Below, one piece after another: positions 32,356 through 38,528 of a stretch of DNA of 48,309 nucleotides (positions are counted from its first letter, which is position 1; every line of letters starts with the position of its first letter). The position numbers were made by a program, and so were the translations under genes. A model generated the notes under the pieces. The model was not told the DNA's origin and did not search any database. It was given only the letters and a program-made list of their open reading frames with translations. The stretch is from Ascidiaceihabitans sp. (GTDB taxonomy: Bacteria; Pseudomonadota; Alphaproteobacteria; Rhodobacterales; Rhodobacteraceae): NCBI GenBank assembly GCA_029251465.1, contig JAQXDI010000067.1:1-48309 (forward strand), written 5' to 3'.

Positions 32356-36584
<4,229 letters not shown>

Positions 36585-36612
36585 ACGAAGACATGCCAAA
36601 AAGTTCACAAAT

Positions 36613-36627
36613 GTTCTCAAAAAGTTC
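36613..36627 (+). promoter_or_regulatory. LexA (SOS) box match, GTTC-N7-GTTC
   Basis: Exact GTTC-N7-GTTC, the alphaproteobacterial SOS box. Another GTTC at 36603-36606 is spaced by six bases, so three half-sites lie in a row. It is 63 bases upstream of the micro-protein ATG at 36691. Confidence 0.7.
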
Positions 36628-36639
36628 TTTACAAGAGCG

Positions 36640-36654
36640 GATCAAAGTGAGAAC
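36640..36654 (-). promoter_or_regulatory. Second LexA box match, GTTC-N7-GATC
   Basis: Read on the minus strand this is exact GTTC-N7-GATC, the variant described for Rhodobacter sphaeroides SOS genes. Centre-to-centre distance to the first box is 27 bases. Both lie within the presumptive promoter of the 42-residue membrane protein gene. Confidence 0.65.
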
Positions 36655-36690
36655 AAAGGTGCAACAGAAGAACATGAGGCACCGACGAAC

Positions 36691-36819
36691 ATGACAACTA
36701 TTCGCCAAATCAAATCAATCGCGAACCGTGCGCAAGATACTTTGTTGCAGGATGCGATTGGAATGGCCGCGTTAATTGTGATGCTCTTTGTTGGCCTGTC
36801 TCTGCCGTCTTTTGTTTGA
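36691..36819 (+). CDS. 42-residue single-pass membrane protein, probably SOS-controlled
   Basis: A 43-codon gene: a basic amphipathic N-terminus (MTTIRQIKSIANRAQDTLLQ), then a hydrophobic helix AIGMAALIVMLFVGLSLPSF and a two-residue end. GAGG lies 12 bases before the ATG. A tiny six-codon frame (ATG at 36674) overlaps the start by ATGA. Two LexA-box matches lie just upstream, so induction after DNA damage is likely. I recall similar short proteins in other Rhodobacteraceae. By analogy with the small SOS-induced membrane division inhibitors SidA and DidA of Caulobacter it might pause division, but there is no visible homology. Confidence 0.7.
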   Translation: MTTIRQIKSIANRAQDTLLQDAIGMAALIVMLFVGLSLPSFV

Positions 36820-36957
36820 TTTTCTGCCTGCGATCTTATGCCGACCATTCTTCGCGTCCGTCCCAAATTGATGCGTTAACAGACACTGCCTGTCCTACGT
36901 TAAGCCGTCACCTTCGGCTCTGAATGGTCCAGGGTCCCCATAAGATACAGTTACTTG
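36820..36957. other. Intergenic DNA before a strong terminator; possible small RNA
   Basis: No open frame of interest. A short stem AGCCG / CGGCT (36903-36919) and several TTAA half-sites (about 36874, 36900) are seen. A strong terminator follows, so the stretch is either the 3' UTR of the micro-protein gene or a separate small RNA. No recognised RNA family. Confidence 0.35.
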
Positions 36958-36992
36958 CGCCGCCATCCCTTTGGATGAGCGGCGTTTTTTTT
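36958..36992 (+). terminator. Strong rho-independent terminator
   Basis: Stem CGCCGC-CATCC / GGATG-A-GCGGCG with one bulged A and a four-base loop, followed by eight T. It points along the plus strand and ends the message from 36691 or a small RNA. It lies 141 bases before the end of the convergent chemoreceptor gene. Confidence 0.9.
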
Positions 36993-37133
36993 GATCTCAC
37001 GACTTTGGCAAAGGTTGGAAATCGTTCATGCTCTACTTTAGGCAGGGGGCAAAATGTTTACGCTTGGACTTTATGGATCGCTCTGAAAACGCATCATGAC
37101 CTGCATCGCAGATTGGGCATTCGCCTCGTTGTT

Positions 37134-38528
37134 TTAGAACGTGTACGCAAGCCGCAGCCCACCCCAGTGGCGGCCTTGGATCATGATGGGTGCGGACAGA
37201 TCCTTCATCATCACAAAGTCACCGCCGCCCATGTCGCGCCGGTAAACTTGTAACAAAAACGGCTCTGTGTTTCGTCCGGCCTTAAGGCCGACACGATCAG
37301 CAAAGATGCGACGGTTACGGCAGTTCGCCATGTTCCAAACCGGATCGTCGCCTTGGGGATGCGAAAATTTGTGGTTGTGCGTTGGTAGATAGCCGTTTTT
37401 GTCCACTGCTGCGCAAAATACGACTTTGGGGTCGAACTGCACGGCGGGTTCCTGGATGTCTGGCATCACGGCGTCCATCAGCGTTGTGAACGCGGTCAAA
37501 ACCTGTTCCGGGTCACTGTTTGGGATCGGTCTGTAGCCGGTATCGAACATTTTGGGCAGGCTGATCTGACCGGTTTCGACGGCGTTGGACAGTGCGGCGC
37601 TGGCCGTCGCAGCGGCTGTTTGGACGTAGTCGATGAACTTGCTGTCTGCGGTCAATCCGCTCAAACCGGCGCTGGCTTGGACAATTGTCTCTGACGTGTC
37701 GATCAAGGATTGAATGCGTCCATGGGCTTCTTCGATGCCGCCAGCTGTGGCGGTCGCGCTCTCTTCTAATCCGTTCAGGACTGGTTCGAAGGCTGCAACT
37801 GTCGAACCAATTGTTTCGGCGCGGATCTTGATCCGTTGTGCCAGATCATTGGTGGCGGCCACCGATTGCTCCATCCGGCCAAGCGCCTGATCCGTGCTGC
37901 TGGAGTGTTCCAACACGTGGCTGGCCATCGCGGCAACCTCATGCGCTTCGACGCCCAATTTGGCCATCCATTCGCTCAAGGCTTCGATGTTGGTAGAAAT
38001 CTGTGCTGCCGCCGCTTTGGTGTGCTGGCTAAGTTCGTTGATGGCCTCTGCGACGACCGCAAAACCTCGGCCCGCGTCGCCTGCATGGGCCGCCTCGATC
38101 TTGGCATTGATCGCCAGCGTGTTCACTTGCATCGAAATCGACGCGATTTGCGAATTGTTCTTTTTCACCGCCTTGAGCGTGCTAGAGACGGTTTCAGTCC
38201 GCGCGCCTAGTTCTTGCACCCACTCAGCCACGCCGCGGGTTTTTTCGCCAACATCGCGCATTGCCTCGGCAGAACTGTAGATTTCCTGCGCCGTGGCATC
38301 GCTGCTTTCGGACGAATCAATCAGGGCGGAACGCGATTCTTCGTTGGCCCCAAGAATCGCGCGCGCGCTTTTGCTAAGCTCTGCCAATTCACGGCGCTGA
38401 CGTTGCGCCTGTGCTTCGACCACGTCGAGAAATCCAGCCAAATCAACGATTTCGTATCCCATGATTGATGCCGATTTCGACATGCGCGTCATCTGTTTCG
38501 GATCAGGGAATGTTGAATGTGTAGACAT
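37134..38528 (-). CDS. Cytosolic methyl-accepting chemotaxis protein
   Basis: 464 residues, no membrane helix or signal. A coiled-coil signalling domain covers about 40-300, with the hairpin tip at about 134-165 (MQVNTLAINAKIEAAHAGDA then GRGFAVVAEAINELS). A C-terminal sensor-like domain at about 350-464 contains VDKNGYLPTHNHKFSH and ends with a Trp-Gly-Gly-Leu-Arg strand. The order signalling-then-sensor is the reverse of classical receptors. It would relay a cytosolic cue to CheA. A CtrA-like site precedes it. The ligand is unknown. Confidence 0.88.
   Translation of the reverse strand: MSTHSTFPDPKQMTRMSKSASIMGYEIVDLAGFLDVVEAQAQRQRRELAELSKSARAILGANEESRSALIDSSESSDATAQEIYSSAEAMRDVGEKTRGVAEWVQELGARTETVSSTLKAVKKNNSQIASISMQVNTLAINAKIEAAHAGDAGRGFAVVAEAINELSQHTKAAAAQISTNIEALSEWMAKLGVEAHEVAAMASHVLEHSSSTDQALGRMEQSVAATNDLAQRIKIRAETIGSTVAAFEPVLNGLEESATATAGGIEEAHGRIQSLIDTSETIVQASAGLSGLTADSKFIDYVQTAAATASAALSNAVETGQISLPKMFDTGYRPIPNSDPEQVLTAFTTLMDAVMPDIQEPAVQFDPKVVFCAAVDKNGYLPTHNHKFSHPQGDDPVWNMANCRNRRIFADRVGLKAGRNTEPFLLQVYRRDMGGGDFVMMKDLSAPIMIQGRHWGGLRLAYTF

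Follow-up and report, generated by a model that had tools for sequence, protein, structure and literature searches.

In Caulobacter, two small membrane proteins, SidA and DidA (71 aa), halt cell division; SidA, from Caulobacter crescentus, is a 29-aa, SOS-induced protein of the inner membrane that interacts with FtsW (PMC4211646), and ΔlexA Caulobacter filaments via sidA (PMC12700426). SOS-induced division inhibitors are described in the Firmicutes as well (YneA and SosA; PMC13396833, PMC6851548). In Klebsiella pneumoniae, the LexA-controlled mRNA of the small protein DinI carries an RNA at its 3′ end, ahead of the terminator, and this RNA, DinR, blocks ftsZ translation (PMC10907235). Finally, in Rhodobacter sphaeroides, which belongs to the same bacterial family as the genome studied here, the small-protein gene ccaF1 is co-transcribed with the 3′ RNAs CcsR1-4, and UpsM, an RNA derived from the division-cluster leader, pairs with the RNA StsR (PMC10253847, PMC8625941).

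The locus described here, behind recG in Ascidiaceihabitans sp., resembles these systems in different respects. As with SidA, its predicted product is a very small protein of the inner membrane whose regulon has the GTTC-N7-GTTC LexA box (PMC4211646, PMC12700426), which is the published box of the Alphaproteobacteria (PMC3323433, PMC12700426). Unlike SidA, the protein has 39-42 residues, its operator has multiple sites and a conserved RNA follows it, and the likeness is drawn by analogy. DidA, too, is a small membrane protein with a single helix that belongs to the damage response, but it is longer, SOS-independent and induced by DriD rather than by LexA cleavage (PMC4211646). YneA and SosA can be likened to our protein by its proposed role only; no Pfam (E up to 1) or NCBIfam (E up to 10) family matches its 42 residues. 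The dinI-DinR transcript has the same layout, but DinI (83 aa) modulates RecA filaments and the pairing site of DinR is Klebsiella-specific (PMC10907235), whereas the RNA here occurs across many genera; this likeness is one of layout. The ccaF1-CcsR1-4 transcript also joins a small protein to 3′ RNAs, but it has an RpoHI/RpoHII promoter and encodes a 71-aa DUF1127 RNA-binding protein (PMC10253847, PMC8625941), while the protein here matches no Pfam family.

The window, that is, the whole 48,309-nt stretch of contig JAQXDI010000067.1 that was analysed, holds the following features at this locus.

34470-36584, plus strand: recG, whose place upstream is conserved (Pfam RecG wedge and domain 3, DEAD, Helicase_C).
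36603-36627, plus strand: a GTTC-N6-GTTC-N7-GTTC array, read from the sequence, with half-sites spaced 10-11 bp.
36603, 36613 and 36624: starts of the GTTC half-sites, read from the sequence.
36613-36627, plus strand: box 1, the predicted LexA operator GTTCTCAAAAAGTTC (GTTC-N7-GTTC, conservation).
36628-36656, plus strand: putative promoter, TTTACA, 17 bp and GAACAA, the latter preceded by TGA (column conservation).
36640-36654, minus strand: the GTTC-N7-GATC box of the earlier note, GATCAAAGTGAGAAC, present in the window and unconserved.
36651-36665, minus strand: box 2, a predicted reverse LexA-like site, GAAC-N7-CAAC (conservation).
36676-36679, plus strand: Shine-Dalgarno-like GAGG (sequence).
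36691-36819, plus strand: the 42-aa membrane micro-protein P0001, with one predicted helix (family, AlphaFold2, hydrophobicity).
36820-36957, plus strand: a conserved, multibranched RNA structure at the 3′ end, whose loops are C-rich (CUGCC / GUCCC) (covariation, model matches, folding z-scores).
36956-36993, plus strand: predicted intrinsic terminator, a G+C-rich hairpin followed by eight T (fold).

The three GTTC half-sites, the GTTC-N7-GTTC box, the minus-strand GTTC-N7-GATC box and the 42-residue frame directly after recG all lie where the earlier note had placed them. The feature is longer than the note stated: it reaches about 36993, and the conserved 3′ RNA had been missed. A convergent gene for an MCP signalling domain (37134-38528, minus strand) may share the terminator region of the micro-protein transcript.

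We propose, with a probability of about 0.6 for the whole reading set out in this paragraph, that the comparative evidence reflects a member of the SOS regulon of Rhodobacteraceae: a transcript under LexA repression that encodes a membrane micro-protein with one helix and ends in a structured 3′ RNA. Comparisons between genomes strongly support the gene, the operator and the RNA fold; we infer LexA binding, induction, the transcript ends, topology, division arrest and RNA action. LexA would occupy the GTTC-N7-GTTC site just 5′ of the −35 element, aided by the neighbouring GTTC half-sites, and probably also the reverse site that spans the −10/start region, so that the promoter stays shut. Upon DNA damage, LexA cleavage would release a transcript of about 330 nt, which would encode a 39-42-residue protein with its basic N-terminus inside, one membrane helix and a short C-terminus. 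Most likely, the micro-protein would act at the membrane to delay division, like SidA in Caulobacter, and the folded RNA with its C-rich loops would be processed or regulatory in the same response; division arrest is drawn by analogy with SidA and DinR. Overall, the locus would combine a product like SidA, by analogy, with a transcript like that of DinR, by layout, in most sampled Rhodobacteraceae.

A protein search of the genome itself and 60 relatives returned matches in 33 of the 61 genomes (E ≤1), and 30 loci shared the same layout of GTTC array, short leader and small frame (39-42 residues). The consensus of 26 aligned members reads MxxxIKxxxxRSxxTLLxDAxGAAALxVMLxxGLHLP, in which D21 and G24 never vary and K8, L36 and L38 hardly do. 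With a profile (E ≤0.1), we found the family in 269 of 295 Rhodobacteraceae genomes, including 240 of 260 high-quality ones, with matches itemised only to E ~2e-13. Among 385 genomes of the class, 33 matched, convincingly only the genome itself and four others of the same family; the best remaining match (E 0.002) lay within a long frame. One Rhodobacteraceae genome counted as frame-less, G034 (L426), appears to carry a divergent copy that the profile missed, with an operator after recG and a frame containing ADMLGVAAIGVATLTVLWLPAL, so 269 may be a slight undercount. In a scan of 72,556 plasmid records, a single relative was found (Pseudorhodobacter turbinis, 51% identity, 1.58-Mb record).

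Differences among 11 same-genus sequences fell mostly on third positions (pN/pS 0.27), and pN/pS was 0.55 among 100 family members. In 218 of 221 distinct loci, recG was the same-strand neighbour upstream of the frame, and a Shine-Dalgarno-like motif preceded the frame in 114 of 116. The earlier note's unannotated small gene beside recG is thus real and kept in relatives, and judged from its conservation the 42-residue frame is a genuine coding gene. A search of the open-licence literature, supplements excluded, returned no description of the micro-protein gene or the 3′ RNA, and the available parts of PMC2864571, PMC6473078, PMC8625941 and PMC3323433 contain none.

By count alone, box 1 is ordinary: GTTC-N7-GTTC occurs three times in the window (1.53 expected; 21 of 100 shuffles reach 3) and, across the 3.3-Mb genome, 91 times exactly against 148 for the backwards pattern, which is no enrichment. 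The question of the boxes was therefore decided by comparison between loci. We used 123 loci from genome searches, 116 of them distinct and mostly stronger matches; 105 further loci (221 distinct in total) were found by operator or frame, and since they were picked by the operator pattern they are no independent evidence for it. Box 1 lies within 170 bp upstream of the frame in 115 of the 116 distinct loci, the single exception being L180. The pattern matched at 123 of 18,096 target positions, compared with 0 of 75,389 positions on the recG side and 1 of 43,381 downstream. It is this conservation, not the count, for which we accept box 1 as real. That a chance frame merely sits behind chance boxes would fit box counts near or below expectation in window and genome, but frame, operator and RNA are all conserved, and we regard the idea as rejected, with a negligible residue of probability.

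The operator extends beyond box 1. A three-GTTC array is present in 104 of 116 loci, the extra GTTC lying six bases before box 1 in 103; a fourth GTTC occurs in 37 and the run GTTCTTTAC in 100. Over all loci, the consensus is TTTTGTTCACAAATGTTCTYAAAAAGTTCTTTACA, followed after about 11 variable bases by ATGAGAACAAA and GGCAACAA. This consensus of the aligned operator regions exposed a second site, GAAC-N7-CAAC, found in 102 of 116 loci (0 of 116 when shuffled) and placed 23 bp after box 1 in 96 of the 102. Of the two boxes whose conservation upstream in relatives the earlier note proposed to check, then, only GTTC-N7-GTTC was kept. GTTC-N7-GATC exceeds expectation in the window (5 vs. 1.55; 0 of 100 shuffles reach 5), but is present in only 3 of 116 loci, and we rejected it as a second operator. 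Promoter-like columns were conserved across 115 loci (TTTAC, 87-100%; TGAGAACAA, 88-98% per column). A sigma-70 scan gave no standard promoter match at the presumed −35/−10, so we infer the promoter at 36628-36656 from these columns only.

In public genomes, at least 117 stretches contain ATGTTCTYANNAAGTTCTTTAC, and the family frame follows in 113 of the 117. Nearly all of the 80 for which titles were shown are Rhodobacteraceae, with Roseovarius, Ruegeria, Sulfitobacter, Tateyamaria, Celeribacter, Rhodobacter, Paracoccus and others among the genera. In three of the four stretches without a following frame (L261, L299 and L275), the sequence runs out no more than about 80 bases from the pattern; L261 continues after the pattern with the conserved TGAGAACAAA and L275 does not; the fourth, L204, is labelled Muribaculaceae.

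The same box marks the core of the SOS response in this bacterial family. GTTC-N7-GTTC lies upstream of lexA in 21 of 21 family loci and upstream of recA in 15 of 16 (12/12 plus 3/4), a check that covered 16 of the 22 family recA loci. In the genome itself, it precedes recA and lexA, as identified by family models, together with genes read as imuB, dnaE2 and mmcB. With the box kept at 115 of 116 micro-protein loci, the LexA-type SOS operator claimed by the earlier note is supported by comparison, and from this pattern the micro-protein gene is very probably under LexA control. In Caulobacter, one box is the rule at SOS promoters (about 97%; PMC12700426), which would make an operator with several sites unusual there; a need to repress a harmful product tightly could explain it. 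LexA control of recG itself has been predicted in some alphaproteobacteria (PMC3323433); the sites studied here sit behind recG.

Several observations accompany the regulon. The recA locus without an exact box is L312 in G019, a genome (82% complete) that also has no lexA match and no frame, possibly a joint loss of the LexA circuit. At L068 (G000:C62:34019), GTTCTGCCTTTGTTC stands directly before the frame read as mmcB. At L053 (G000:C17:36504), GTTCTTTTTTTGTTCCAATTTGTTC lies just 5′ of a 116-aa frame (MHYQAQFPGMFAPEQ...), a further candidate SOS gene with a GTTC array.

Genomes without the frame were compared with genomes that have it, using 20 of the 26 frame-less ones. No lexA was found in 5 of the 20, against none missing in 20 frame-bearing genomes, which is suggestive. 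However, a lexA match is kept in the other 15 (in one, G094, below the cut-off), so we rejected a simple coupling of gene loss to lexA loss; the micro-protein gene is evidently dispensable in some lineages. The extended pattern GTTC-N7-GTTCTTTAC was found in 3 of 20 frame-less genomes vs. 10 of 10 frame-bearing ones; one of the three is the divergent gene of G034 and the other two look like chance. Neither G011 nor G012 contains it.

AlphaFold2 modeled the micro-protein as one helix (residues 3-41, mean pLDDT 90.6). The best hydrophobic 19-mer scores above 1.6 in 99% of 220 members, and the N-terminal part carries a median charge of +1, in agreement with the basic start and single membrane helix of the earlier note. 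These features suggest one membrane span with the N-terminus inside. Very short, with a single predicted helix and a predicted LexA operator, the protein shares these features with the SidA-type inhibitor class, and on this analogy the chances that it acts as a division or growth brake seem about even.

Small membrane peptides also serve other roles. TisB and DinQ are LexA-controlled membrane peptides, and a tiny protein with one helix and a LexA-type operator could be of their kind, causing depolarisation and dormancy rather than acting on the divisome. The TisB helix is charged and amphipathic, unlike the last 20 residues here, which have no net charge in 98% of the 220 members; the constancy of D21, G24, K8, L36 and L38 speaks against such a peptide as well. 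Type I toxins of the TisB/DinQ kind have a long structured 5′ leader under antisense RNA control, as in tisB, whose leader is long and structured. At our loci, 51-100 nt separate the end of box 1 from the start codon; with a promoter at the boxes, only a short leader would fit, with no room for one of the tisB type. A scan for antisense promoters found none, although the same scan also missed the putative promoter of the gene. Taken together, a TisB-like peptide appears improbable, and we continue with the reading of a micro-protein that restrains division.

After the stop codon, the motifs CTGCCTG and CCTGTCC recur in the loci. Our script recognised a terminator-like end in 191 of 221 distinct loci; a dedicated terminator scan did not report 36956-36993. 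Among the 191 terminator-bearing loci, CTGCCTG is present in 156 (3.2 expected from shuffling) and CCTGTCC in 118 (7.2 expected). Even without the terminator, the folding z-score averages −2.76 (166 sequences) vs. −1.05 for 89 recG segments, and the window's own 3′ region, terminator included, scores −4.82.

Applied to 22 divergent 3′ regions aligned with MAFFT, RNAalifold recovered only four pairs because variable loops misalign. We therefore built a covariance model, R1, from eight closer seed sequences and a hand-written structure based on single folds. It matched 45 of 100 loci (E ≤0.01), six of them seeds. In the R1 alignment, 91.3% of cells can pair, compared with 71.6% after shuffling and 31-47% when the structure is slid; two-sided changes occur in 29 of 31 pairs, and covariation is 0.497 (0.175 shuffled; ≤0.116 slid). 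A second model, R2, was built from the 45 matches of R1 and matched 73 of 100 loci, with covariation 0.531. Since the structure was hand-written, seeds are among the matches and R2 derives from R1, the later counts lean towards the structure, and fitting alignments A4 and A5 to it favours its pairs; the slid controls guard against this, as does the occurrence of the RNA in other genera. Under stricter filters, R2 found one match each in 54 of 120 whole family genomes, making the RNA more variable than the protein. The fold has two stems, one closing and one inner, and hairpins whose exposed loops carry GUCCC or CUGCC, and the covariation leaves little doubt that it is under selection.

Rfam 15 gave no match in the window at 36500-37150 (E up to 5). 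In eight relatives (E up to 1), there were seven matches, all below the gathering score and all outside the 3′ RNA, namely Ysr141 in six of the eight and one ROSE_3, so a known Rfam family was rejected. A structured RNA without Rfam match at the 3′ end of the predicted transcript is the new element here.

A conserved fold after the stop codon, then a predicted intrinsic terminator, is a feature of 3′-UTR-derived regulatory RNAs, and whether this RNA acts in trans seems to us evenly balanced. It might instead serve only in cis, in mRNA stability, localisation or control of micro-protein translation, for it keeps close to the frame: among 37 R2 matches with E <1e-4, 32 had a listed frame, and in all 32 the RNA was adjacent to it on the same strand (the other five were unchecked). 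A weak R2 match in G077 (E 0.098) lies on a different contig from the frame. Pairing of the RNA with its own start region was rejected as a cis mechanism, the only one covered by this comparison: across 70 loci, the energies were −22.5 for the own region, −22.8 for other loci and −22.7 for reversed sequences. A purely cis role is possible but on the unlikely side, and a processed or regulatory RNA of the SOS response remains our preferred reading.

Prompted by DinR, we inspected ftsZ leaders. In the family, ACAGGCGG precedes ftsZ in 19 of 21 genomes (genus 9/9, others 10/12), and ACAGGC is absent from 9 ftsZ start regions outside the family and from 64 frames of the window. The ftsZ start of the family (L463-L490) has in ACAGGCGG an unusual Shine-Dalgarno sequence. 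This motif is complementary, with one G-U, to CUGCCUGU of the RNA; CTGCCTGT is present in 84 and GCCTGT in 122 of 191 RNA cores. However, in a control with 154 genes of the genome itself, which for each gene kept the best among several candidate starts and included ftsZ, 13, 25 and 20 genes paired with the three loops at least as well as ftsZ. Moreover, G012 has only a weak frame match (E 0.009) and still keeps ACAGGCGG.

In the same ranking, mraZ, with which the division/cell-wall cluster begins, came first among the 154 genes for the H1 loop, and it was picked after the ranking had been seen. Within the genus, GGGACGG in the mraZ start region faces CCGUCCC in the RNA loop; in G016, the corresponding pair is GGGACAGG and CCUGUCCC. 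A GGGAC complement lies 5′ of the mraZ start in six of eight other RNA-bearing genera, G018 and G014 being the misfits. Upstream of the mraZ start, GGGAC occurs in 15 of 19 family leaders, vs. 3 of 11 outside.

Against shuffled leaders, the mean z for mraZ was −3.50 in the genus and −1.12 in other genera with H1, −1.93 and −1.52 with H2, and +0.67 and −0.22 with the 5′ motif, which therefore shows no mraZ preference; genus members are not independent in these means. For ftsZ, the respective values were −1.41 and −1.49 (H1), −2.78 and −1.60 (H2), and −2.48 and −1.05 (5′ motif). Leaders of recA and lexA ranged from −0.84 to +0.52, so most loop-gene pairs favour ftsZ and mraZ, although ftsZ is no outlier among the 154. 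When H1 and mraZ were swapped between genomes, genus-genus pairs reached an energy of −17.6, compared with −13.6 for genus H1 with other mraZ and −14.6 for other H1 with genus mraZ. Within the other genera, own pairs (−15.8) differed only weakly from swapped ones (−14.9).

By sequence comparison, the complementarity of the RNA loops to the ftsZ and mraZ starts is suggestive only. One could read it as pointing to the RNA as the main product, a DinR-like SOS RNA that represses division genes at their starts, with the frame secondary. The strong covariation, the repeated CTGCCTG and CCTGTCC, the family-specific ftsZ motif, the mraZ rank with the z means below those of recA and lexA, and the DinR precedent (PMC10907235) all agree with this. 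Against it stand the wider detection of the protein (269/295) than of the RNA (54/120), the purifying selection on the protein, the ordinary rank of ftsZ, the ftsZ motif kept in G012, and, for mraZ, the post hoc choice, the two misfitting genera, the outside leaders with GGGAC, the weak H1 score beyond the genus and the 5′ motif's lack of preference; we consider this reading doubtful. Rather unlikely, too, is a two-pronged checkpoint on one SOS transcript, in which the micro-protein would stall the divisome while the RNA loops pair with the ftsZ and mraZ starts and stop division-protein synthesis, as the damage checkpoint of most Rhodobacteraceae. The reading that we prefer is the LexA-repressed transcript itself, encoding the micro-protein and carrying the RNA.

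Rhodobacteraceae are abundant marine bacteria and include photosynthetic models. For them, the locus is a candidate for holding division during DNA repair, present in about nine tenths of the sampled genomes and built around a gene too short for ordinary annotation. An apparently LexA-controlled RNA joined to a protein would make two arms of one response genetically separable, and the complementarity to ftsZ and mraZ is a sharp, testable prediction.

A reverse GTTC-N7-GTTC box also lies about 570 bp upstream of mraZ in the genome itself (G000:C67:4607-4621; L064:1208). Boxes are found upstream of mraZ at −536 to −571 in seven of nine same-genus loci and at −530 in G016, and some exact box lies within 750 bp upstream of mraZ in 10 of 19 family loci.
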